A stretch of DNA of 45,024 nt, from the IMG/VR virus record IMGVR_UViG_3300007623_000013, positions 1-45,024 of that record, one strand, 5' to 3'. Shown one piece after another: positions 3,268 through 32,820 of this stretch; the first letter of the stretch is position 1, and each line of letters opens with the position of its first letter. The translations under genes and the position numbers were made by a program. Below the pieces are notes generated by a model, which was not told the origin of the DNA, did not search any database, and saw only the letters and a program-made list of their open reading frames with translations. This stretch comes from a virus.

Positions 3268-5310
3268 ATGATTTTACATGAAAACAAAAAAAATGTTGAC
3301 ACAAATATGACTGGAGCTGGTGCGTTCTCAATTAAAGCAAGTGCAAAAGCATTTAAGATTCTATCAGATGGATTATATTCTGATAAAATTAGAGCAGTAG
3401 TTAGAGAGTTAAGTTGTAATGCACTAGACAGTCATACAGCTGCAGGATGTCCAGAAAAACCAATTCAAGTACATTTACCATCACTTTTTGAACCATATTT
3501 CTCAGTACAAGATTTTGGTTTAGGTTTAAGTAAAGAAAGTATTATGAATCTTTATACGACTTATTTTGAAAGTACAAAAGCAGATTCAAATGACCAAATT
3601 GGAGCACTAGGATTAGGTAGTAAATCTCCTTTTTCATATACTGATTCATTTACAGTAACAAGTGTATTTGATGGTGTTAAATCTATGTATTCTGCTTATA
3701 TTGGTAGTAATGGTGAGCCTTGTATTCAACCACTATCAGATGAAGAAACAACAGATGACAACGGAGTTACAGTATCATTTGCTGTTAAAAAAGAGGACAC
3801 TGATAAGTTTAAGTCTAGAGCAGAACTTGTATATAGACCATTTAATGTTAAACCTGTAGTAGTTGGTGTAGATACTTTTGAAATTGAAGATAGAGGTGTA
3901 GTTAAGTATAGTGGAAATGGGTGGAAAATATATGAATCATCATATTATAATAGAGACCAATATGTAGTACAAGGTAATATTGAGTATCCACTAGACAGCA
4001 ATAATATTGATTGTGAAAATGATAAACAAAAATTTATTTTAAGTCAAAATTGTGACATTGAGTTCAAATTAGGTGAGTTGGACATTGCTGCATCTAGGGA
4101 GTCTATTGGTTATGATGAAATTACAAGAGAAAACATTAGAGCAAGACTTGAAGAAGTTTATAATGAACTAGTTGAAGTTGTAAATGCTGACATCGGTAAT
4201 AGCAAAACATTTTGGGAAGCTTGTAGAAAATCTAAAATACTACAAGAAAACTTTTATTATTCAAGTATGTTAACAGACGGTCTAGTATTTAATGGGGAAC
4301 CTATTAAACATAATTTTTCAATCGATGATAATGAGATAGTTGGTTATTATCATAATTATAGAACGCAAACAAAAGTAGGTAGAAATGTATTCAAAAGAAG
4401 TATTTCTACAGATAACGATTTTATATTTGTTTTAAATGACATGAAAAGTAAAAATAAAGGTATTAGTAGAGTTAGAGCATGGGTTGCTGAAAATAATGGG
4501 TCATATTGTTTAGTAGTAAATGACAAATCTATATTTGATATTTTAGGTTCACCTGAATATAAACTTGCTTCAGAATTTGAGGATAAATCAATTGCTACTG
4601 TTAACAAAAAAAGTCCTACAGGTAAACATTTTAAAGAATATTACCATAGTGGTAGTGTTTGTTGGCAATGGGATAACCTTTACCAATCATTTGAAGATGT
4701 TGCAGGAAGTGTAGAAACTAAAATATACTATATGCCTATTAAATCAAAAGAAGCACCATATGGAGATATGTATGGACTTGTACACGCTGCAATATACCTA
4801 GGTTTGGTAGATACTACTAGATATATTACAGGTATTAAAGAAAGTTTTATTGGAACTAAAAAGTTTAATGAACTAGCAGAAACAGTTGAATTTATTAGAC
4901 TTGACGAAGCAGTAAACAATATAATAGACGACATTAAAGACAACTATATGTTTAAAAATATATTAGAAGATGTTTTATTACACACTGTGAAAGTAAGAAA
5001 ATCGTCACCTATAATCAAGGATATTATTAAAATTCTTAAAAAAGATATTGATATTTTATTACCAGGTGTTGCTAAAGATATTGTTTCAAGTTATAATCAT
5101 GATAATAATGTAATACACGCAACAAAAATGTGTGAAGTTACTGCAAGATTTTTTAATAATTATATTAAAGTTGATGTAACTAAGTTTGACGATGAAACTA
5201 AATTACAAAAAGCATACCCATTGATTAAAATGTTAGATAGATGGGAGATAAACCACGATGAAGATAAAGCATTGGTTAATTATATTAATATGATTGAATT
5301 ACAATCTTAA
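3268..5310 (+). CDS. rIIA: RIIA-like GHKL-fold protein
   Basis: The 680-residue product matches phage T4 rIIA in size, gene order and N-terminal GHKL ATPase-type motifs. RELSCNALDSH (near 46-56) is the Glu/Asn helix that binds Mg-ATP, DFGLGL (near 82) is the second motif, and GALGLGSKSPF (near 112-122) is the third. In T4, RIIA with RIIB protects infected cells from exclusion by lambda rexAB and affects lysis and membrane state; its biochemical activity remains unclear. An ATG also lies at 3262, but it sits one base from the AGAAGG site. The ATG at 3268 has normal spacing and is chosen here. rIIB follows under its own promoter. Confidence 0.88.
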   Translation: MILHENKKNVDTNMTGAGAFSIKASAKAFKILSDGLYSDKIRAVVRELSCNALDSHTAAGCPEKPIQVHLPSLFEPYFSVQDFGLGLSKESIMNLYTTYFESTKADSNDQIGALGLGSKSPFSYTDSFTVTSVFDGVKSMYSAYIGSNGEPCIQPLSDEETTDDNGVTVSFAVKKEDTDKFKSRAELVYRPFNVKPVVVGVDTFEIEDRGVVKYSGNGWKIYESSYYNRDQYVVQGNIEYPLDSNNIDCENDKQKFILSQNCDIEFKLGELDIAASRESIGYDEITRENIRARLEEVYNELVEVVNADIGNSKTFWEACRKSKILQENFYYSSMLTDGLVFNGEPIKHNFSIDDNEIVGYYHNYRTQTKVGRNVFKRSISTDNDFIFVLNDMKSKNKGISRVRAWVAENNGSYCLVVNDKSIFDILGSPEYKLASEFEDKSIATVNKKSPTGKHFKEYYHSGSVCWQWDNLYQSFEDVAGSVETKIYYMPIKSKEAPYGDMYGLVHAAIYLGLVDTTRYITGIKESFIGTKKFNELAETVEFIRLDEAVNNIIDDIKDNYMFKNILEDVLLHTVKVRKSSPIIKDIIKILKKDIDILLPGVAKDIVSSYNHDNNVIHATKMCEVTARFFNNYIKVDVTKFDDETKLQKAYPLIKMLDRWEINHDEDKALVNYINMIELQS

Positions 5311-6769: not shown

Positions 6770-7255
6770 CCATTCTCCTTCACAATTTATAAGAGTATAG
6801 GTACCTTTAGTTAAATTAAAAACAGGGTTACCTCCTGCTCTTTCAAATGTTCTCACATTTCCTTCTATAACTTTTATAGTTAGTTTTTTTGTATAGTTTT
6901 TCTCTAAAAAAAGAACTGAATTTTTAGCAGTAACAATAACTATATCATTATCTTCTAAATTTTTAGTATCATTTGGTTTATCCATTTTAAGTACTTTTAA
7001 TGGAGGATGCTTGTATTGTAAATGAGCAAGTTCAGGTCCAAATGTAAAACTGAATGTTTTAGTTTCTTCTTCCCATACTAGGTTAAGAGGGTAACTTTCT
7101 CCTCTATTAATTTTAATACCAGCGAACTTTGGTATATCGCCTTTAGAATTAATTTCAATGAAAGGTTCTTCTACATTCAAATCTTTAACACTTATTCTGC
7201 CATTTTCAACTTTAAAAAAACTAGTAATTAGATTTTGTAATTCAATTTGTGTCAT
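6755..7255 (-). CDS. Late-expressed hypothetical protein, possible virion or fibre component (166 aa)
   Basis: This is one of only three leftward genes. It has a TATAAATA late promoter about 22 bases upstream on its own strand, so it should be made late, like structural proteins. The C-terminal part (about 110-166) has the alternating VIVTAKNSVLFL, TIKVIEGNVRTF, GTYTLINCEGEW pattern. Phage fibre and baseplate proteins commonly end in such beta-rich modules, but the match is only in pattern and no family is assigned. It sits between the rIIB continuation and a divergent early promoter. No signal peptide or membrane segment is seen. Confidence 0.6.
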   Translation of the reverse strand: MTQIELQNLITSFFKVENGRISVKDLNVEEPFIEINSKGDIPKFAGIKINRGESYPLNLVWEEETKTFSFTFGPELAHLQYKHPPLKVLKMDKPNDTKNLEDNDIVIVTAKNSVLFLEKNYTKKLTIKVIEGNVRTFERAGGNPVFNLTKGTYTLINCEGEWLDIS

Positions 7256-7276
7256 TTCAGTTCTCTATTTTTGTAG

Positions 7277-7284
7277 TATTTATA
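7277..7284 (-). promoter_or_regulatory. T4-type late promoter (TATAAATA, leftward)
   Basis: On the minus strand the sequence reads TATAAATA, the exact T4 late consensus, 22 bases before the ATG at 7255. It lies back to back with the rightward early promoter at 7287-7308. Confidence 0.7.
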
Positions 7285-7286
7285 AT

Positions 7287-7308
7287 TTAAGTAAAAATAA
7301 GGTATAAT
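7287..7308 (+). promoter_or_regulatory. Early-type promoter (TTAAGT-N10-TATAAT)
   Basis: An exact TTAAGT-N10-TATAAT reading into the small gene at 7341. It is divergent from, and almost touching, the leftward late promoter. Confidence 0.65.
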
Positions 7309-7340
7309 ATATAAATAAATTTAAAAAAAGAGGTAATCTA

Positions 7341-7544
7341 TTGGGAGACAGTTATAGGCGGTTAAAAAATGATTTGTCAATTTTCTTAACAGAAGCAAGA
7401 AGTTATTTTACAACCTGTGAATATTGTGGACACAAAAGTACAAGAGTTAGATTAGAAAAAACTAACAAAAAGAACAAATGGTTACATGAGATAGTGTGTA
7501 ACGACTGTAATCAAATTTTATACAAGAGTAAAGGTAAAGTATGA
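7341..7544 (+). CDS. Small two-CxxC zinc-ribbon protein with TTG start (67 aa)
   Basis: The protein has CEYCGH in the middle and CNDC near the end, giving four cysteines for one zinc. It is otherwise basic and charged, with basic stretches such as LEKTNKKNKW, so nucleic-acid binding is plausible. The start is taken as TTG at 7341 because AAGAGG lies seven bases upstream and there is no ATG in the frame. The stop overlaps the next ATG. No named family is recognised. Confidence 0.55.
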   Translation: MGDSYRRLKNDLSIFLTEARSYFTTCEYCGHKSTRVRLEKTNKKNKWLHEIVCNDCNQILYKSKGKV

Positions 7545-7723
7545 CAGAAACACAAATAAAAGAATTTAATGACCAATTACAAAAGATTGGAAAAATGACT
7601 CAAATGTATCAAGTTAACTTACAAAAAGGTGACCTTGACAAATCAAAACTTTTTGTCAATTTAACTCAAGGTGAACTTTTAAAATTAGAAATGCTAATAT
7701 ACAATGTACAACAAAATAGTTGA
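7541..7723 (+). CDS. Small helical hypothetical protein (60 aa)
   Basis: It starts inside the stop of the preceding gene (ATGA) and is probably translationally coupled. The sequence is highly helical and lacks Cys and Trp. It resembles the short coiled-coil proteins common in T4-like early regions, but no function can be read from it. Confidence 0.5.
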   Translation: MTETQIKEFNDQLQKIGKMTQMYQVNLQKGDLDKSKLFVNLTQGELLKLEMLIYNVQQNS

Positions 7724-8120
7724 AACTGGTAATTTTTTAAAAACTATTACATTTTTTAATAATGACCAAGAAATTGGTCATATAAGATATTGGTATAATG
7801 ACAGTGAAATCTCTAAAAAAGATTTATTAAATCTTTTTAAAAAACACAGTGAAAACGCTAGAGAGGTTATGACAAACTTCCCCGCAGAATGTTTAGACGA
7901 ACATTCTTTATATTTACACTACTTATGGGTAGAAAAGGAATTTAGATATAATGGTGTAGGTGCTAAATTACTAGAAATGCTTATAACAGAAAGATTTAAA
8001 GGGTTAAATGAAATAGTACTTGCTTATGACGATTCTAAACAATGGCTAGTTCCATTTTATATAAAAAATATATCATCAGCATACTGTACTAGAAAAAATG
8101 TAATACTTTTTTATATGTAA
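7704..8120 (+). CDS. GNAT-family acetyltransferase-like protein (138 aa)
   Basis: Residues around 72-95 read LWVEKEFRYNGVGAKLLEML. This matches the acetyl-CoA-binding motif A of GNAT acetyltransferases (V..e.rg.GiG..Ll), with the family pattern of a beta strand and helix after it. The length is typical of a single GNAT domain. The target, whether a protein, an antibiotic or a tRNA/toxin-like substrate, cannot be predicted. Its ATG lies 20 bases inside the previous gene and lacks a strong ribosome site. Confidence 0.62.
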   Translation: MYNKIVETGNFLKTITFFNNDQEIGHIRYWYNDSEISKKDLLNLFKKHSENAREVMTNFPAECLDEHSLYLHYLWVEKEFRYNGVGAKLLEMLITERFKGLNEIVLAYDDSKQWLVPFYIKNISSAYCTRKNVILFYM

Positions 8121-13252: not shown

Positions 13253-14653
13253 ATGATAATAAATCGTGTATGTTTAGCAGATAGTTATAAGTATAGTCAA
13301 CCAATGCAGTATCCTAAAAATGTTACAAGTATGTATGACTATATGGAGTCAAGAGGTGGAGAATACGATTCAACCGTATTTTTTGGATTACAATATATTT
13401 TAAAAGAGTTTTTAGAAACACCTATCACAATCTATGAAGTGGAAGAAGCAAATAGATATGCTAAATTACACGGAGAACCTTTTGATTATAAAGGGTGGCA
13501 GTACATTGTAGAAAAATACAAAGGTAAATTACCAGTTAGAATTAAAGCAGTTGCAGAAGGTTCTGTTATTCCTACAAAACACCCACTTGTAACAATTGAG
13601 TCAACAGATGAAAAGGTATTCTGGGTAGTTGGTTTCTTAGAAACATTATTAATGAAAGTATGGTACCCTACAACTGTAGCAACTAAATCATACTATGTTA
13701 AAAAAATGTTAAATGAGTATGCAGAAAAATATTCAGATTCAACAGATGGTGTTTCATTTCAATACCACAACTTTGGTGATAGAGGGTCTACAACAGTTGA
13801 AGCAGCAGCAGTAGGTGGAATGGCACACTTAACACAATTCTTAGGAACTGATAACTTTAAGTCATTATTCTTTGCTGACAAATATTATGGTGTTGATGAG
13901 GATACAGTAGCAGGATATTCAATTCCAGCAACAGAGCACAGTACTGTGACATCTTGGGGAAGAGATGGGGAATTTGAGTTCTATGAGAACTACATTGAAA
14001 CTTTTAAAGGAAGTCCTATTGTAGCGTGTGTATCAGATTCATATGACATTTACAAAGCAACTAGATTTATTACTAGTGGTACAATGAAACAAAAGATTGA
14101 GTCAGATGAGTATCCAATTTTTGTTATTAGACCAGATTCAGGTGACCCTGTAGAAGTAGTATCACAAATGTTAGACATTTGTTATGAAAATGATGTTGCA
14201 TACACAGAAAACTCAAAAGGGTTAAAAGTGTTTAACAAGTACAGAATCATTTATGGTGATGGTATTTCTCCAGTAGTTATTAAAGAAATTTTAGATGTTG
14301 TTGTTGACAAAGGATATGCACCCGATAACTTAGCATTTGGTTCAGGCGGAGATTTAATGCAGAATGTTAATAGAGATACATTAAAGTTTGCTATTAAATG
14401 TTCAAGTGTAACAGTAGATGGTCAATTAAGAGATGTATTCAAAGACCCTATAACAGATAAAGGTAAAGCATCTAAAAAAGGTAGAGTTACTACATTCTAT
14501 AACAGTGAAGAAAATGAATACGCGGTAGGTGATGTTGACACTATTCCAGTTGGTTATGTTGATTTATTACAAACTGTTTATGAAAATGGTGAAATTAAAA
14601 GAACATACTCTTTTGATAGAGTAAGAGCAAACACATGGATAAAATATGATTGA
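13253..14653 (+). CDS. nadV: Nicotinamide phosphoribosyltransferase (NAMPT/NadV)
   Basis: The 466-residue protein has the full set of NAMPT landmarks: DSYKYSQPMQYP at the start, FQYHNFGDRGSTTVEAAAVG near 162-181, a GTDN loop, IPATEHSTVTSWG near 222-234 with the catalytic-type His, VSDSYDIYK, IRPDSGDP and YGDGI. The enzyme makes nicotinamide mononucleotide from nicotinamide and PRPP. The length is standard. It leads an operon with the NMN adenylyltransferase at 14843, giving a two-step route from nicotinamide to NAD+. Such pairs in other phages rebuild NAD+ destroyed by host immune NADases. The assignment is firm; the defence role is inferred. Confidence 0.93.
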   Translation: MIINRVCLADSYKYSQPMQYPKNVTSMYDYMESRGGEYDSTVFFGLQYILKEFLETPITIYEVEEANRYAKLHGEPFDYKGWQYIVEKYKGKLPVRIKAVAEGSVIPTKHPLVTIESTDEKVFWVVGFLETLLMKVWYPTTVATKSYYVKKMLNEYAEKYSDSTDGVSFQYHNFGDRGSTTVEAAAVGGMAHLTQFLGTDNFKSLFFADKYYGVDEDTVAGYSIPATEHSTVTSWGRDGEFEFYENYIETFKGSPIVACVSDSYDIYKATRFITSGTMKQKIESDEYPIFVIRPDSGDPVEVVSQMLDICYENDVAYTENSKGLKVFNKYRIIYGDGISPVVIKEILDVVVDKGYAPDNLAFGSGGDLMQNVNRDTLKFAIKCSSVTVDGQLRDVFKDPITDKGKASKKGRVTTFYNSEENEYAVGDVDTIPVGYVDLLQTVYENGEIKRTYSFDRVRANTWIKYD

Positions 14654-14842: not shown

Positions 14843-15388
14843 ATGAAATATGGATTATTTATTGGAAGAGTTCAACCTTTTCACTTTGGTCACCAACATA
14901 TTGTTAATGAAATAATGTTAGACGGATTGAGACCTCTTATTGCTATTGGGTCTATTAATCACAACAGAAACTTAGACAAAAACCCTTTAAGTTTTCAACA
15001 AAGAAAAGAACTAATTCAAATCATATATCCTACAGAAGTTGATATTATAGGACTATATGATTTTGAAGATTGGACAGATTGGTTTGAAAATGTATTAAGA
15101 GCAATTGAATATGTTGCATTAGCAAAGCCAGGTGATGTTACACTTTATTATCATAACAAAGAAGTTGATAGAACTACATTTGAATTTAATGGTAACACAT
15201 ACCAAAATACATTTTATACTGATATTTTCAAAGATAGTGGGTTTAATATGAAACCAATTGAATTTGTTGATAGAAGCGATTTTAAGATTGATAGTAACGC
15301 AAGTGATATTAGAAGTGATATTGAAGGATTTAAACACTTTTTGGATGCAAGAATATATCACAAACTAAAAACTCTAGGGTGGAAATAA
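14843..15388 (+). CDS. NMN adenylyltransferase (NadM-type nucleotidyltransferase)
   Basis: The 181-residue protein begins MKYGLFIGRVQPFHFGHQHI, which contains the G.xQPxHxGH motif of NMN/pantetheine-type adenylyltransferases. NPLSFQQRKELIQ near 48-60 corresponds to the NPF..ER segment of NadM enzymes. The enzyme would join NMN and ATP to form NAD+. A TTG upstream in frame was ignored because AAAGGA lies just before the ATG at 14843. The ISTTR-type C-terminal motif is not exact, so substrate choice rests on the motif and on the NAMPT gene directly upstream. Confidence 0.85.
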   Translation: MKYGLFIGRVQPFHFGHQHIVNEIMLDGLRPLIAIGSINHNRNLDKNPLSFQQRKELIQIIYPTEVDIIGLYDFEDWTDWFENVLRAIEYVALAKPGDVTLYYHNKEVDRTTFEFNGNTYQNTFYTDIFKDSGFNMKPIEFVDRSDFKIDSNASDIRSDIEGFKHFLDARIYHKLKTLGWK

Positions 15389-17182: not shown

Positions 17183-17386
17183 ATGAATATTGATAATCAA
17201 GGTATAAAACCAAAATTTAGACTATTTCAAAAAGTTCAAGTGACAATAAACAATCAGTTAGAGGACTGTGAGATTTTTGGATTACAATACGATGAAAGAA
17301 GAAAATCTTTCCTATATATGTTAAAGTGTTGTAAAACAAGTATTTTTAGTGCATTTGAAAATGAATTGGTAGAGATTCCAAAATGA
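17183..17386 (+). CDS. Hypothetical protein (67 aa)
   Basis: A small beta-rich protein (KFRLFQKVQVTINNQLEDCE) ending in LVEIPK. Proteins of this size and pattern are common in phage early regions and may be SH3-like, but no family is assigned. Its stop overlaps the NAD-kinase-like start (ATGA), indicating coupled translation. Confidence 0.5.
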   Translation: MNIDNQGIKPKFRLFQKVQVTINNQLEDCEIFGLQYDERRKSFLYMLKCCKTSIFSAFENELVEIPK

Positions 17387-18048
17387 TATTATTTAGAGAT
17401 AGTTACGACAAAGAAAAATACATAGAAGATTGTGGTAACTATATAAAAGCAGTAGGTGGAGATGGTACACTACTAAGAGCAATTAATTTGTACTCGGAAT
17501 TAGACAAACCATTTTTTGGTGTTGCTAAAGGAACAGTTAACTTTCTTATGAATAAGAGAGATAGTGTTGACGAATATACACATTTTCAAAAATTAAATTT
17601 AATCAAAATTAGAGTAGAATATGATAATTTTCATAAGAGAACTATATTTGCATTCAATGATGTTATGATTGGTGGAGATATGAACTCTTGGATTGAGTTT
17701 AATGTTGAAGAAAAAGATGGAATGTTTGGTGACTTTAGAGGTGGTGGTATAATTATAAGTACACCACAAGGGTCAACTGGTATTAACAAAAATAACAATG
17801 GTCCTATACTACCACTATCAACTGATTTGTGGAGTATTACTGGTGACAAATGTAACAGAAAAATTGAATATGTTATAGAACCAAGGGAAACTGTTATATC
17901 TGTTAAGAGTAGAACACCTGTAACACTATGGGCAGACGGTTCTAATACAGTTATAAAAAATGTACAACGGGTAACAATATCAAGTGGTGATAGTGTAGAA
18001 GTGTTGTTTAATGACTTTGAAGAGTTTATTAAAAAGAGAAGAATCTAG
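17383..18048 (+). CDS. NAD kinase-like protein
   Basis: The 221-residue protein has the NAD kinase/diacylglycerol kinase fold signature GGDGTLLRAI (about 24-33), FGVAKGTVNFLMNK (about 46-59), matching the G.N.G.lGFL motif, and AFNDVMIGG. The long motif STPQGSTGINKNNNGPILPL (about 126-145) corresponds to STPTGSTAY..SAGGP. The enzyme would phosphorylate NAD+ to NADP+. The gene is shorter than cellular NAD kinases (about 290) and lacks much of the N-terminus. Placed next to NAD+ synthesis genes, it may convert or shelter the NAD pool. The S-T-A-Y Tyr is not conserved, so activity is likely but not certain. Confidence 0.8.
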   Translation: MILFRDSYDKEKYIEDCGNYIKAVGGDGTLLRAINLYSELDKPFFGVAKGTVNFLMNKRDSVDEYTHFQKLNLIKIRVEYDNFHKRTIFAFNDVMIGGDMNSWIEFNVEEKDGMFGDFRGGGIIISTPQGSTGINKNNNGPILPLSTDLWSITGDKCNRKIEYVIEPRETVISVKSRTPVTLWADGSNTVIKNVQRVTISSGDSVEVLFNDFEEFIKKRRI

Positions 18049-24568: not shown

Positions 24569-24964
24569 ATGACATTAGCAATTGTTGGTAGTAGAAGTTT
24601 TATAGACTATAGTTTAGGATACTTAACTACAGATGAATTTGTATCAGAACTAAAAGAAAGTAATATAATAGTAGATAGTGTAGTTTCTGGCGGGGCTAAT
24701 GGTGCAGATAAATTTGGTAGACAATTTGCTAGAAGTAGAAGAATGGGATACAAAGAACACCCAGAAGATTGGCACAATTATGGTAAAGCAGCTGGTATGA
24801 TAAGAAATAAAGACATTATCAATGATGCTGACTGTGCTATTGTATTTTGGGATGGAGTGAGTAAAGGTACAAAAAATATCATTGAACACATAATGTCAAA
24901 AGGTATTCCATATCAAATCATTAGATTTGATAAAAGTGACACAGAGGAATGGTATGATAACTGA
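24569..24964 (+). CDS. SLOG-fold nucleotide-binding protein (YspA/DUF2493-like)
   Basis: The 131-residue protein reads TLAIVGSRSFIDY at the start, VVSGGANGADKFGRQFARSR (about 38-57), then HPEDWHNYGKAAGMIRNKDI, then DCAIVFWDGVSKGTKNIIEH. These are the GSR, SGGA.GAD, RN..I and FWDG.S.GT elements of the YspA-type SLOG family. That Rossmann-like fold binds nucleotides or their derivatives and often occurs in nucleotide-signal or immunity systems. It overlaps the GGDEF gene by 11 bases, suggesting linked roles. The ligand is unknown. Confidence 0.82.
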   Translation: MTLAIVGSRSFIDYSLGYLTTDEFVSELKESNIIVDSVVSGGANGADKFGRQFARSRRMGYKEHPEDWHNYGKAAGMIRNKDIINDADCAIVFWDGVSKGTKNIIEHIMSKGIPYQIIRFDKSDTEEWYDN

Positions 24965-25502
24965 ATATTGTAATGATTGTGATAAAATAAAATCACTACA
25001 GAGAGAAATTGAAGTTCTAAAAGAACAAATAGAAAGATACAGATATGACGCATTAACAGGACTACCAACTAGAATAGACTTTGAAAGTGATTATGAAAAT
25101 CATATTCACGACTACAACACCTTTAACGAAACTTTTATGCTAGGTATAATTGACTTAAATGACTTGCATAATATAAACAAAGACAAAGGGTATAAAGCAG
25201 GTGACAGTGCCTTGCTAGAAGTTTCACAGACATTACAAGAATTATTTTTTGATTGTTCAATATATAGGATTGGTGGTGATGAATTTGCACTATTATGTAG
25301 AAGATTATCATTAGATAAGTTTACTAGTATTATTAACCACTCAAACATCAATTGTAAAGTATCAATAGGTGCTTGTAAATCTAAAGGTGTAAATATATCG
25401 AAAAGTGATATGTTTAAAATAGCAGACGACCTTATGCTTATCGATAAATCAAATAAAAGAGTAGGAAGATTGAACTGTAAGATTGAGTTTCCATTTAAGT
25501 AA
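24954..25502 (+). CDS. GGDEF-domain protein, probable diguanylate cyclase (182 aa)
   Basis: The 182-residue product is a short coiled coil (residues 10-30) plus a GGDEF domain. It shows DALTGLPTR (32-40), the metal-binding strand IIDLNDLHNINKDKGYKAGD (Asp67), and an intact RIGGDEF (105-111), then VSIGA (137-141) and ADDLMLIDKSNKR. These are the substrate and catalytic features of diguanylate cyclases, which make cyclic di-GMP from two GTP. No RxxD inhibitory site precedes the GGDEF loop. There is no sensor or membrane domain. The ATG at 24954 follows a GAGG site and lies inside the SLOG gene. The cyclase motif is plain; the actual product, possibly another cyclic dinucleotide, is untested. 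Confidence 0.85.
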   Translation: MITEYCNDCDKIKSLQREIEVLKEQIERYRYDALTGLPTRIDFESDYENHIHDYNTFNETFMLGIIDLNDLHNINKDKGYKAGDSALLEVSQTLQELFFDCSIYRIGGDEFALLCRRLSLDKFTSIINHSNINCKVSIGACKSKGVNISKSDMFKIADDLMLIDKSNKRVGRLNCKIEFPFK

Positions 25503-27216: not shown

Positions 27217-27264
27217 TGGTGGTTGGATAGATTATCTGTAAAAAAGATAAAACAAGGAAAGAAA

Positions 27265-28593
27265 ATGAAATTCACACATAATAACACAGAATACGAGTTA
27301 ATGTTCTTAACAGTGGCTGGAAGTCACTTATATGGAAATAGCAGACCAGAGTCAGATTGGGATTATAGAGGCGTTTTTATGGCATCTAATGATACATTCA
27401 CAGGTTTACTTGGAAAGACTGAACAATTAGAGGGACAGACAGTATATGATGCTCTTGTTAAAGCTGGTATGGAACTAAATGAGACAGATGATGTCGTACT
27501 TTATGAGTTAAACAGATTTTGTCAATTAGCACTGGATAACAATCCGAACATAATGGATATGTTATGTCACGATTACACTAACCCTAAGTTCTCTTTATAT
27601 AAAAGTAACAGTGGTCAGAAATTGTTAGAAAACAAAGATTTGTTTATGAGTACAAAACTTAAGCATACATTTAGTGGTTATGCTATGGCACAGTTAAAGA
27701 GAATCAAAGGTCATAATAAGTGGATAACTGAATTTCCAGACACTGATGCAGTATTATCATTTACAAAATATATGTTTGAGCAAGATAGGGTTGATTTTAA
27801 TTGGGTTTGTGACAACTTTGGTGGAGAAGTTGCCGAAAAGGTAACAGGTGAAAATGCACAAAAAAACACAAATAAAGAATGTGTATCTTGGAAAGAATTT
27901 GTAACATTGAGAGCAGAAATGAGCAATGGTGATGGATTTCTAGAAAATTATAGATTACCTCAGTTAATTGACTACTGTCATCCAAAAGACTTAAAAGGTA
28001 AACAAATGAGTATAAAGGCAAAACTGTCTGATTACGAATTATTTGAACGACTTGGAATAACAAGTTTAGAATTATTTTTAAGAAAACAAGCATCATTTAG
28101 AACACTATCTCCTAGTATGTTAGTTGTGTATACTGGTGGTAACGGATTATTCTCTAAAGAGGGTAACTTAAAGGCAAATGACCCAGAGAAGGTAGGTGAG
28201 TTTGTATGTTTACTTTCAGTTGACCAAATGAAATACAAATCTGACAAAGACCATGTTAAGAAAATGTGGCATTGGAAATGTAACAGAAATGAGAAAAGAG
28301 GTGCTCTAGAGGAACAGTTTGGTTATGATACTAAGCACGCATCACATTTAGTTAGATTGATGGAAGGTTGTAAAGATATACTATCTACTAGTGTATATGA
28401 GCCGACACTTTCAGGTGATAGATTAAAACTTGTAAATGATGTTAGAAACGGCGAATATACATATGAATGGGTTGTTGAGTATGCTGAGAAACTTGACAGT
28501 CAGTTACAAGAAATGATGAAAAAATCTGAATTACAAAAGAAACCAAACCATAAAAAAGTTAACGAATTAGTACTAGAATTAAGAAAAAATTAG
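27265..28593 (+). CDS. RlaP-like nucleotidyltransferase (DNA polymerase beta fold)
   Basis: The 442-residue protein starts with a polymerase-beta nucleotidyltransferase core: TVAGSHLYGNSRPESDWDYR (about 13-32), with the GS..YG loop and the DxD pair (SDWDYRG). It then has a long helical region. This pattern matches the YcgL/RlaP family of predicted nucleotidyltransferases, which often sit near RNA ligases or RNA-repair genes. A TTG 42 bases upstream was rejected because CAAGGAAAG precedes the ATG at 27265. Together with the CCA enzyme it suggests RNA 3'-end work, but the substrate is unknown. Confidence 0.78.
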   Translation: MKFTHNNTEYELMFLTVAGSHLYGNSRPESDWDYRGVFMASNDTFTGLLGKTEQLEGQTVYDALVKAGMELNETDDVVLYELNRFCQLALDNNPNIMDMLCHDYTNPKFSLYKSNSGQKLLENKDLFMSTKLKHTFSGYAMAQLKRIKGHNKWITEFPDTDAVLSFTKYMFEQDRVDFNWVCDNFGGEVAEKVTGENAQKNTNKECVSWKEFVTLRAEMSNGDGFLENYRLPQLIDYCHPKDLKGKQMSIKAKLSDYELFERLGITSLELFLRKQASFRTLSPSMLVVYTGGNGLFSKEGNLKANDPEKVGEFVCLLSVDQMKYKSDKDHVKKMWHWKCNRNEKRGALEEQFGYDTKHASHLVRLMEGCKDILSTSVYEPTLSGDRLKLVNDVRNGEYTYEWVVEYAEKLDSQLQEMMKKSELQKKPNHKKVNELVLELRKN

Positions 28594-29928: not shown

Positions 29929-30843
29929 TTAATGTAGTGTAAAATAGGTTGGTTTACTTAAACATTCAGTATAACCTCCTATTTTTTCCTTAGGTGTATA
30001 TTTAAAGAACTCATTTTCAGATAATAATTGTTCTTCTTTTTCCTTACAATCTAATAATGTCCCTTCATATAAATCTATGACTTCTATTTTATAATATTTC
30101 CTTATTTGTTTAAATCTATCAATTATACCTTTAGTGGTTATACCAACTTTATAAAATTTTTCATTATTTTCAATATGTGTGAACTTTAGACTATATAGAA
30201 TGCAGTAATCATCTTTATGTTCATTTAACTTAAGAGTATTAATACTCATTGATGTATAAATGGGTTGTTTACAATGTGGACATTTAGATTTTAGATTTTT
30301 GTTTAAAAAATCTTTAGGTAGTATATTAAACTCACCGTGCTCTTTACATATAACAGTTATAGGTCTATCTCTCCTAGTGTATTTTACTTTAGATAAATCA
30401 TATATATTACCATTTATTTTTAATGCTTCTTTGATGTACTCTTTATGGGTCTTTTCTTGTTTACATTTAGGACATCCTCTACCACTCGTTAAAGACCTTG
30501 CTTGAGGTGTAAATACACCATGGTATACACATTTAACTTCTATTTTCTCTTCTATACCTACAAATTTATTTTTGTCAATCTCAATTGTATAAAACTTCGC
30601 ACCTAATGCTTTAGCACAGTCATCTATAAATTTATCAGGTGTCATTCTATTTTTACATTTAGGACATCCTCTACCACTCGTTAAAGACCTTGCTTGAGGT
30701 GTAAATGTACCATGTTCTGAACAATGTACTGTCACTCTATCAGAAGAACTAACATATACTACATCACTAAAATCTAATGTACTTACTTTACTACCCAACT
30801 TTTCTTTTACTTTTTTAATAAAAGTTTCTGTATTATATGCCAT
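29929..30843 (-). CDS. Zinc-ribbon repeat and GIY-YIG-like endonuclease-type protein (304 aa, leftward)
   Basis: Three similar DUF723-like zinc units lie in the first 190 residues. Each runs V.C..HG.F...(A/K)..L..GR/..CP.C. The first two are nearly identical, with FTPQARSLTSGRGCPKC in both. The C-terminal part (about 215-300) reads ILYSLKFTHIENNEKFYKVG, then GIIDRFKQIRKYY, then LLDCKEKEEQLL, like GIY-YIG/T5orf172-type nuclease domains. The ATG at 30843 follows AAAAAGGACTT; a start 33 bases upstream lacks a ribosome site. Antisense orientation and a late promoter support a mobile endonuclease. Confidence 0.7.
   Translation of the reverse strand: MAYNTETFIKKVKEKLGSKVSTLDFSDVVYVSSSDRVTVHCSEHGTFTPQARSLTSGRGCPKCKNRMTPDKFIDDCAKALGAKFYTIEIDKNKFVGIEEKIEVKCVYHGVFTPQARSLTSGRGCPKCKQEKTHKEYIKEALKINGNIYDLSKVKYTRRDRPITVICKEHGEFNILPKDFLNKNLKSKCPHCKQPIYTSMSINTLKLNEHKDDYCILYSLKFTHIENNEKFYKVGITTKGIIDRFKQIRKYYKIEVIDLYEGTLLDCKEKEEQLLSENEFFKYTPKEKIGGYTECLSKPTYFTLH
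30460..30514. repeat. 55-bp direct repeat, copy 1
   Basis: Identical at every base to 30652-30706. Both lie inside the leftward zinc-ribbon gene and encode its repeated FTPQARSLTSGRGCPKC unit. Confidence 0.85.
30652..30706. repeat. 55-bp direct repeat, copy 2
   Basis: Second identical copy of the repeat at 30460-30514, 192 bases away. That spacing is a multiple of three, so the reading frame is kept. Confidence 0.85.
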
Positions 30844-30900: not shown

Positions 30901-30904
30901 AAGT

Positions 30905-30968
30905 AATCGTGTAATTAATACATAAAATTAAGGATAATTTAATCTAAATTACACAATTTTACACGATT
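30905..30968. promoter_or_regulatory. Operator-like inverted repeats upstream of the cytochrome gene
   Basis: AATCGTGTAA (30905-30914) is matched exactly in reverse by TTACACGATT (30959-30968). A direct near-copy, TTACACAATT, lies at 30949-30958. These 10-base elements overlap the upstream box of the cytochrome promoter and could be regulator sites. Confidence 0.5.
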
Positions 30969-30980
30969 TTATGGTATAAT
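30959..30980 (+). promoter_or_regulatory. Promoter of the cytochrome gene (TTACAC-N10-TATAAT)
   Basis: TATAAT at 30975 has TTACAC, not TTAAGT, 10 bases upstream. The odd box sits in the repeated TTACACRATT elements, so this promoter may be controlled differently from the others. Confidence 0.5.
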
Positions 30981-31026
30981 TATACAGTTACAAAAAGATA
31001 ACTAAATAAAAACAAAAGGAGAACTT

Positions 31027-31308
31027 ATGAAAAAGTTACTATGGATTGCAATATTAGCAACAGGAATTATGGCGGCAGAGGTTAGTACTGCAAGTTGTGT
31101 AGGATGTCACGGAGCGGATTGGTCAAAGTCTGCACTAGGTAAATCTAAAATTGTTTCTGAAATGACACAAGAAGAGATTAAAACTGCATTAAACGGATAT
31201 AAAGATGGAACATATGGTGGACCAATGGCAGGTGTAATGAAAGGTCAAGTTATGAGATTAACTGACGCTGACATCGCAGCAATTGCTTCACAAATCAAAC
31301 CACAATAA
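31027..31308 (+). CDS. Secreted monoheme c-type cytochrome (93 aa)
   Basis: The protein begins with a Sec signal peptide (MKKLLWIAILATGIMAAEVS, likely cleaved after residue 16 or 17). CVGCH at 24-28 is the heme c attachment site, and MAGVMKGQV near 67-75 supplies the Met axial ligand region, followed by LTDADIAAIASQI. This is a complete small class I cytochrome c very like periplasmic cytochromes c553 of Campylobacterota. Heme is attached in the periplasm by host maturation proteins. It would carry electrons there, for instance to a cytochrome oxidase. It stands alone with its own promoter and a palindromic terminator, and its GCG/GCC/GAC-rich codons differ from neighbouring genes, suggesting gain from the host. 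Confidence 0.93.
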   Translation: MKKLLWIAILATGIMAAEVSTASCVGCHGADWSKSALGKSKIVSEMTQEEIKTALNGYKDGTYGGPMAGVMKGQVMRLTDADIAAIASQIKPQ

Positions 31309-31314
31309 ATGGAT

Positions 31315-31340
31315 AATCTAGTAGTATACTACTAGATTTT
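31315..31340 (+). terminator. Terminator after the cytochrome gene
   Basis: A perfect 24-base palindrome (half site AATCTAGTAGTA, 31315-31326) begins six bases after the stop and is followed by TT. It forms a 10-bp or longer stem with a four-base loop, enough for intrinsic termination, although the T run is short. Confidence 0.65.
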
Positions 31341-31374: not shown

Positions 31375-31396
31375 TTAAGTAAAATTTAACTATAAT
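31375..31396 (+). promoter_or_regulatory. Early-type promoter of folE (TTAAGT-N10-TATAAT)
   Basis: An exact pattern match 32 bases before the FolE start codon. Confidence 0.66.
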
Positions 31397-31427: not shown

Positions 31428-32204
31428 ATGGAATTTAAAGTATTAAATGATGATATTATTAACTATGCGAAAGAAAGATTTACAAAAAAATATACAACTG
31501 TAGATTTTGATACTGCACTAGAAACATACAAAAATATGAATGATTTTAAGATTTCTGAAAATGTATTTAATAATAATAAAAATTTTGATGAAAAAGTACA
31601 CTATTTGGTTAGACTAGTTACACAATACCATATGGAATGTGTATTTAGAGCAATGAAAATTGATATGACAGATGAAAATGTTGCAGGGGAAACTGGTACA
31701 CCTTACAGATTTACTAAAATGTATTGTGGTGCAGACTTAGAAGATGATACAGAATTATTATCTGGTAGATGGACTAAAAAACCTAGAATTGCATCATTTC
31801 CAAATGAACATAAACAAAAGTTTCCAATTACGAAAAGAGTTGATGTTGTAAGTGTATGTTCACACCACACTGCACCATTTAGTACTATGTTTAGAGATGA
31901 CTCTTATGCTATTATTTCTTATATACCTGAAGATAAAATTTTAGGTATTAGTAAATTACAGAGGATTGTTGATTGGGTTGCTAGAAGAGGACATTTACAA
32001 GAAGGTCTTACACAAATGATTTATGAAGAAGTAAGTGCTGCTGCAGAGACTGCTAATGTGTATGTAAAACTATGTAATCTTGTACATACTTGTGAATCGT
32101 TAAGAGGGTCACAGTCTAAAGATGGAACATTTACAAGTGAATATTATGGTGGTGAGTTTGAAAACTTTGAAAATAGAAAAGAAGTACAGTTAAGTATTAA
32201 ATAA
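31428..32204 (+). CDS. folE: GTP cyclohydrolase I (FolE)
   Basis: The 258-residue protein holds GTP cyclohydrolase I motifs: TPYRFTKMYCG near 88-98, VVSVCSHHTAPF near 142-153 (zinc Cys and His), ILGISKLQRIVDWVARRGHL near 169-188, and the closing CESLRGSQ that supplies the second zinc cysteine. It makes dihydroneopterin triphosphate from GTP, the first step toward 7-deazaguanine bases. QueD follows nine bases later, so a deazaguanine role is more likely than folate. It leads the operon up to about 34446. Confidence 0.92.
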   Translation: MEFKVLNDDIINYAKERFTKKYTTVDFDTALETYKNMNDFKISENVFNNNKNFDEKVHYLVRLVTQYHMECVFRAMKIDMTDENVAGETGTPYRFTKMYCGADLEDDTELLSGRWTKKPRIASFPNEHKQKFPITKRVDVVSVCSHHTAPFSTMFRDDSYAIISYIPEDKILGISKLQRIVDWVARRGHLQEGLTQMIYEEVSAAAETANVYVKLCNLVHTCESLRGSQSKDGTFTSEYYGGEFENFENRKEVQLSIK

Positions 32205-32212
32205 GGATTAGT

Positions 32213-32542
32213 GTGAAACATATTATAGATAAATCGTTTAGTTTTTGTTATGGACATAGAGTTCATAATCAAAGACTTGATACAAATTTTACAGAGAGTG
32301 GTGATGCTTGTCTTGCTTGTAGACACTTACACGGACACGAAGGTTTAATTAAAGTTTTCTTAGAAGAAGAAAAAACTGGTATTAATGTACAATCTACTGG
32401 AATGGTTACAGATTTTAAACACCTTGGATGGTTTAAGAATTTTATTGATGATACATTAGACCATAAAATGATTTTAGACATTAAAGACCCACTATTACCT
32501 AATGAACTAGAGAGTTACACTCGTTGGATACTAAAGAGTTAG
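32213..32542 (+). CDS. queD: QueD-like 6-carboxytetrahydropterin synthase, N-terminal part
   Basis: A GTG-start frame (AAGGA site) encodes MKHIIDKSFSFCYGHRVHNQ, then CLACRHLHGHEG (Cys36, His39, His41), then TDFKHLGWFKNFIDDTLDHK. These are the zinc His, catalytic Cys and C-terminal DHK elements of QueD/PTPS enzymes, which turn the FolE product into 6-carboxytetrahydropterin. The frame ends after YTRWILKS, well before the family's usual end. The rest continues in the -1 frame from the next entry. Confidence 0.82.
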   Translation: MKHIIDKSFSFCYGHRVHNQRLDTNFTESGDACLACRHLHGHEGLIKVFLEEEKTGINVQSTGMVTDFKHLGWFKNFIDDTLDHKMILDIKDPLLPNELESYTRWILKS

Positions 32543-32820
32543 ATACACAATATTTGATTACAGATAGTAGAGGGTTTTCAACAATTGCTTTAGGACAACT
32601 AGTAGAAGATTTATCTTTAGATTTAGATAATCCAGGTGATAAAGCAATATATGAAAAATATGAAGGTATTGTTATTGTTGATTTTGTTCCTACATCAGAA
32701 AACTTAGCAGGTTGGTTGTTGACAGTTGCACAAGAAAAAATGAAAGGTATACCTAACATTAAAGTAGCAGCAGTTGAATATTGGGAAACTCCAAAAAGTC
32801 ACTGTAGAGTAGAATCATAA
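32524..32820 (+). CDS. QueD-like C-terminal part in the -1 frame
   Basis: This frame, open from 32506 and with only TTG at 32524 as a start, encodes EGIVIVDFVPTSENLAGWLL and ends VAAVEYWETPKSHCRV. The VDFVPTSEN and E.WETPKS segments are the C-terminal half of QueD enzymes, including the pterin-binding Glu. It overlaps the first part by 19 bases in the -1 frame. Either the two parts are joined by a frameshift (the sequence CTAAAGAG near 32533 offers a slip-prone AAAG), or one base has been lost or misread. The weak TTG makes a separate small protein the poorer choice. Confidence 0.6.
   Translation: MDTKELDTQYLITDSRGFSTIALGQLVEDLSLDLDNPGDKAIYEKYEGIVIVDFVPTSENLAGWLLTVAQEKMKGIPNIKVAAVEYWETPKSHCRVES

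Follow-up and report, generated by a model that had tools for sequence, protein, structure and literature searches.

A Campylobacterota-like cytochrome c gene with putative regulatory signals of its own in a T4-like phage genome

Organization of the locus

The window, by which we mean the whole stretch of DNA analyzed, comprises all 45,024 bases of an IMG/VR virus record (IMGVR_UViG_3300007623_000013), which is itself probably part of a larger genome. It encodes the T4-type replication proteins topoisomerase gp39 and gp52, the UvsW helicase, the clamp gp45, and gp32, and is part of the genome of a T4-like phage, with a gp39 nearest to that of Vibrio phage Va1 and its kin (39%). No tRNA was found in the window. 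Our focus is a 93-aa open reading frame (ORF) on the plus strand at 31027..31308 (ATG at 31027, stop at 31308), assigned to the c553/c6-type cytochromes by profile, PDB match, alignment, and structural model. As the initial annotation had described, it stands between a leftward endonuclease gene and folE. The former (29932..30843, minus strand) matches phrog_681 (E 1e-42), has a weak T5orf172 C-terminus, and is likely a free-standing homing endonuclease; the latter, at 31428..32204 on the plus strand, codes for GTP cyclohydrolase I (PF01227). In an empty-site comparison, this neighborhood was shared by no related contig, and no close folE relatives were found in IMG/VR. At 32213-32820, two frames jointly match the QueD-like 6-carboxytetrahydropterin synthase family, which may reflect a frameshift, a sequencing error, or a two-piece protein; the DNA is about 67-81% like Campylobacterota queD.

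One promoter-like pattern recurs in the window. TTAAGT-N10-TATAAT occurs in 13 exact copies against 0.12 expected, all on the plus strand and ranging from 1478 to 43253; the same pair is found at no other spacing from 5 to 19, and seven pairs have spacings of 20-21. Judged by these counts, the motif is a phage promoter, and folE carries an ordinary copy at 31375-31396. The layout, a box plus a -10 element, recalls T4 middle promoters; one copy exists in another viral contig (L005, below), and the other viral loci that we examined have none. The predicted cytochrome promoter is unlike the 13 others, as had been claimed: it reads TTACAC-N10-TATAAT, with TTACAC (30959-30964, plus strand) in place of TTAAGT and an extended -10 (TGG) before the -10 box at 30975..30980 (plus strand). 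Adjoining this box are two tandem operator-like 14-mers, ATTACACAATTTTA and TTTACACGATTTTA (30948..30971, plus strand), which hold two tandem exact matches to WTTACACRATTWTA (TTACACRATT repeats), at 30948 and 30958; an inverted copy, 100% complementary and reading AATCGTGTAA on the plus strand, lies at 30905..30914 on the minus strand. Of the operator-like repeats in the initial annotation, the local cluster of two tandem and one inverted copy thus stands, although across the whole window the motif is not commoner than expected by chance.

Translation would start from a strong Shine-Dalgarno sequence, AAGGAGA (31016..31022, plus strand), the fifth strongest among 67 window genes. After the stop codon, a perfect 24-nt palindrome, AATCTAGTAGTATACTACTAGATT (31315..31338, plus strand), forms a terminator-like hairpin with a predicted folding energy of -17.6 kcal/mol (z -7). 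The palindrome is as perfect as first described; its action as a terminator is likely but, the T-run that follows being short (TTTTCC), not certain. With a promoter, a repeat cluster, and a hairpin of its own, the gene does look like a stand-alone regulatory unit, and the arrangement suggests a separate temporal class or separate control for the cassette.

The cytochrome

By its sequence, the ORF is a complete, mono-haem class I cytochrome c of the c553/c6 type, in agreement with the initial annotation. It matches PF00034 (E 2e-6; 29.3 bits against a gathering cut-off of 21.3), and its top PDB match in a sequence search is Desulfovibrio vulgaris cytochrome c553 (E 5e-14). The haem-attachment motif CVGCH (C24-V-G-C27-H28) is encoded at 31096..31110, and the predicted distal haem ligand, Met71, at 31237..31239, both on the plus strand; the residue of 1dvh that pairs with Met71 is the second Met of 'KAMM', the axial Met of c553. 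In our alignment (A6), C24, C27, and H28 are invariant, as is M71. From the motif, we predict covalent attachment of haem. The N-terminus resembles a Sec signal by eye, with KK, a hydrophobic stretch, and A-A before EV; this putative signal peptide would span about residues 1-16/17 and direct export to the periplasm. An AlphaFold2 model, built from a 16-sequence alignment of the window and locus proteins, has a mean pLDDT of 84, with 91-96 over most of the mature part and low values in the signal region; a Foldseek search with the model returned c553 first (E 3e-5, TM 0.73/0.85), followed by other small cytochromes c. The Desulfovibrio protein (1dvh, 1c53) is the closest solved structure by both sequence and fold, but at about 40% identity it comes from another phylum and has other redox partners. 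NCBIfam holds no equivalog for the phage protein.

The base composition of the gene had been taken as a sign of GC-richer codons and recent transfer, and here our results differ. At 0.387, the ORF has a higher GC content than any other in the window, but the excess comes from GC1 and GC2 and thus reflects its amino acids. Nothing stands out in GC3 (0.215, z 0.99) or in codon use (z -0.32, rank 28 of 70). Because homologs in the putative hosts have the same GC3 (mean 0.214), a composition test has no power to date the transfer, and we rejected codons and GC as signs of recency. A very recent capture is, moreover, argued against by the long branch of the protein, 0.5 changes per site.

Relatives in Campylobacterota

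All relatives that we found in cellular genomes point to one phylum. We searched 84,980 genomes of bacteria and archaea for patterns derived from the window protein and a Sulfuricurvum homolog and obtained 54 loci, every one Campylobacterota by title; as the patterns favor this family, the count does not bear on absence elsewhere. Among 397 genomes drawn from Campylobacterota, 142 had matches at E<1e-15, the best 62% identical. When 19 kb of the window were compared as DNA with the same 397 genomes, the cytochrome gene was picked out, at about 70-83% identity within the ORF, and queD came second. These results bear out the Campylobacterota-like character noted in the initial annotation and support a host origin of the gene within Campylobacterota. 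The host of the phage is probably a sulfur-oxidizing bacterium of this phylum.

Genomes of the phylum contain several related cytochromes each, and some of these paralogs probably serve other enzymes. We distinguished two cellular forms with a purpose-made N-terminus pattern, one with a short stretch before CxxCH, as in the window, and one with a longer stretch. The ccoS gene was found within the locus of 26 of the 45 short-form relatives and none of the 39 long-form ones, some loci being just 3 kb long; the Fisher P value of 9e-10 overstates the evidence, as the loci are mutually related. Pfam identifies ccoS in these loci as FixS/CcoS (PF03597) and its neighbor as a CcoI-like copper P-type ATPase; ccoS and ccoI are maturation genes of the cbb3 oxidase. 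We considered the short N-terminus as a phage trait but dropped the idea, because it also occurs in Arcobacter, Sulfurimonas, and Sulfurovum.

Viral relatives and phylogeny

Phage-encoded exported cytochromes c had been described as rare, and our searches agree: no relative was found in 50,697 GenBank phage records queried with three different family members, in PHROGs, or among BFVD structures (best E 2.2). Scans of IMG/VR, in which a pattern search may miss others, revealed three further viral contigs with related cytochromes. L005 (193.7 kb) is T4-like by its gp39 and gp32 and has the cytochrome between a MazG-like gene and gp32; L065 (37.5 kb) carries RtcB, a phage-type phosphoesterase, and many homing endonucleases; and L066 (5.2 kb), also T4-like, has a cytochrome that is truncated and precedes gp45, gp32, and an exonuclease/RNase H-type gene. 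The positions in L005 and L066, before gp32 and gp45-gp32, are unlike that in the window. The full-length proteins of L005 and L065 belong to the same family as the window protein, at 42-46% identity to it; the haem motif and the Met ligand are conserved in all three, and the L066 fragment retains the Met region. As a detector in viral contigs, PF00034 was discarded because it missed the L005 gene, which the family alignment found. The gene was absent from 26 other contigs, some of 167-441 kb, found with the gp39 topoisomerase of the window; many of these are fragments and several are distant relatives, for which absence is weak evidence.

The viral proteins differ in detail. The L065 cytochrome has a lipobox-like MAAC and may be a lipoprotein; it also has a Cys-containing C-terminal tail, and the L005 tail contains NATCD. 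In L065, a homing endonuclease gene (3920-4576) directly precedes the cytochrome gene (4889-5233), and the window cytochrome likewise adjoins one. L005 further encodes two long proteins of YDDRGNELTF...SWTKTYDD repeats (6963-8120 and 13337-14113).

A tree of 90 sequences, of the kind envisaged in the initial annotation, placed the viral proteins on long branches (0.5-0.8) and in different places among their Campylobacterota relatives. L005 joins an Arcobacter-type pair/clade with support of 100/95, and in the free tree, the window protein falls near Sulfurovum-type proteins with weak support (83/71). The free tree thus puts the window outside the ccoS-linked clade, though an AU test is compatible with a place within it (p 0.47). 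A single viral clade is likewise not rejected (p 0.21), although in the free tree the three full-length viral proteins stand apart; placing the window and L065 together even scores better. With about 100 alignment columns, one origin and several cannot be told apart; tree and gene positions together suggest several captures.

Discussion

We consider it fairly probable that the phage carries a captured host electron carrier of the CccA-like c553/c6 type, working between the bc1 complex and the cbb3 oxidase during infection. The extended -10 promoter of the gene would be used by host RNA polymerase, presumably early in infection; Sec would export the apoprotein, and host CcsBA would attach the haem in the periplasm. 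The holo-protein could then carry electrons from quinol-cytochrome c reductase to the cbb3-type oxidase, so that respiration, proton-motive force, and ATP supply would be kept up during the shut-off of host gene expression. A role in respiratory electron flow, proposed at the outset, is the likeliest function because ccoS-ccoI adjoins many of the cellular relatives. The linkage belongs to these relatives alone: the phage gene is flanked by an endonuclease gene and folE, and its own genomic context points to no partner. For lack of this linkage, we do not class it as a CccA orthologue; it is probably CccA-like in its work.

In Campylobacter jejuni, ccoI and ccoS are cj1155c and cj1154c (PMC8267372), and CccA (Cj1153), CccB, and CccC take part in electron transfer between bc1 and the cbb3 oxidase (PMC5656828); by the locus numbers, cj1153 would adjoin ccoI/ccoS. 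With the CccA-type c6/c553 of Campylobacterota, the phage protein shares its size, predicted signal peptide, CxxCH, distal Met, GYKDG-(S/T)-YGG-x-M core, and short N-terminus, at up to about 60-65% protein identity; it differs in being phage-encoded, in having no ccoS-ccoI beside the gene, in its own regulatory cassette, and in its long branch.

The electrons might, however, go elsewhere. The cytochrome could serve another periplasmic partner, such as Nap, cytochrome c peroxidase, or thiosulfate/sulfide oxidation, and redirect electrons rather than sustain their flow to the oxidase. The presence of several paralogs per genome would fit this, as would the Sulfurovum-type short-form relatives, which have no ccoS nearby and next to which the free tree, weakly, puts the window; in C. 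jejuni, reductases and peroxidases of the periplasm receive electrons from Qcr as well (PMC6195509). On a Sulfuricurvum plasmid, a relative even lies directly before napA, but it is of the long-form subtype and the window protein of the short, and many short-form relatives adjoin ccoS-ccoI. On balance, we regard another partner as unlikely. Support of c-type cytochrome maturation or of periplasmic thiol redox balance, instead of bulk electron flow, we think improbable: it is brought to mind by the title of Liu and Kelly 2015, according to which CccA (Cj1153) is needed to keep apocytochrome thiols reduced for haem attachment (as cited in PMC8267372), yet the sequence gives it no preference over electron transfer.

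Two further readings seem to us very improbable, each to the same degree. Phage proteins often inhibit host machinery, and the viral branches are long (0.5-0.8); as a decoy, the protein would compete for haem, CcsBA, or oxidase docking and slow host respiration or exclude other phages, but it retains every haem and ligand residue as well as the core GY-x-x-G-x-YGG...M, as a working carrier would. Nor is the gene easily seen as an incidental passenger or a chimeric assembly with no function in the phage. The record is a single metagenomic fragment, the 26 other gp39-found contigs lack the gene, and the adjacent homing-type endonuclease could have dragged it in; against this, it has its own promoter, a strong Shine-Dalgarno sequence, and a hairpin, and the conservation of functional residues at about 42-62% identity implies selection. 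A chimera in particular is unlikely because three other viral contigs carry relatives and the codon use matches that of the window.

If the gene is indeed a carrier feeding the oxidase, a functional parallel would be plastocyanin, PetE, an auxiliary metabolic gene of cyanophages. Both are small, soluble, host-derived electron carriers in T4-like phages; PetE, however, is a copper protein of photosynthesis, the phage cytochrome a haem protein of respiration, and the two are not homologous. The initial annotation called the gene a moron taken from the host. Host derivation and, by sequence, the promoter and terminator-like hairpin agree with that term, but a foreign codon composition was not found, and the strict sense of a gene expressed from a prophage does not suit a T4-like and thus presumably lytic phage, T4-like phages being lytic. 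"Auxiliary metabolic gene" is the better term, as the gene sits in a virus genome among virus genes, has its relatives in Campylobacterota, and is absent from the other contigs found with gp39.

Viral genes of respiration have been described before: cbb3 subunits (PMC3474794, PMC12713726), CydAB (PMC12043954), NorB/NirK (PMC8115048), and Sox proteins including SoxD, some phage SoxD apparently without a cytochrome c motif (PMC8190135). All of these are directed at host electron transport, as the phage cytochrome would be, but cbb3, CydAB, NorB/NirK, and SoxD are subunits of oxidases or reductases; PMC8115048 states that its phages showed no electron carriers such as cytochromes. In the literature, of which our coverage was partial, we found no description of a soluble respiratory cytochrome c in a phage, and a soluble stand-alone respiratory electron carrier was likewise absent from the libraries of phage sequences and viral structures that we searched.

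The gene suggests that some viruses supply parts of the host respiratory chain while multiplying. Sulfur-oxidizing Campylobacterota rank among the main primary producers of vents and sulfidic waters, and their phages would then be supporting or steering host electron flow at the level of cytochrome c; the protein, being small and easily tested, offers a means to measure whether respiration limits phage production. More tentatively, and with a chance that we put a little below even, several lineages of T4-like and other large phages of Campylobacterota may have captured a host periplasmic c553 independently, each in another genomic place, which would make the carrier between bc1 and the oxidase a recurrent bottleneck of infected chemolithotrophs. 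If several independent captures did take place, the cytochrome would be the respiratory counterpart of cyanophage plastocyanin.

Other genes of the window touch on metabolism and repair. Proteins resembling NadV-type NAMPT (13253-14653), NMN adenylyltransferase (14843-15388), and, weakly, NAD kinase (17383-18048) form a possible NAD(P) supply set; they would fit a phage that handles host redox metabolism, and a link to the cytochrome is conjecture. The phage also encodes a GGDEF diguanylate cyclase domain (24927-25502, E 4e-15), with relatives in the viral loci L097 and L105, and a UV-damage endonuclease, UvdE, and an RlaP-type RNA-repair nucleotidyltransferase at 611-1492 and 27259-28593.
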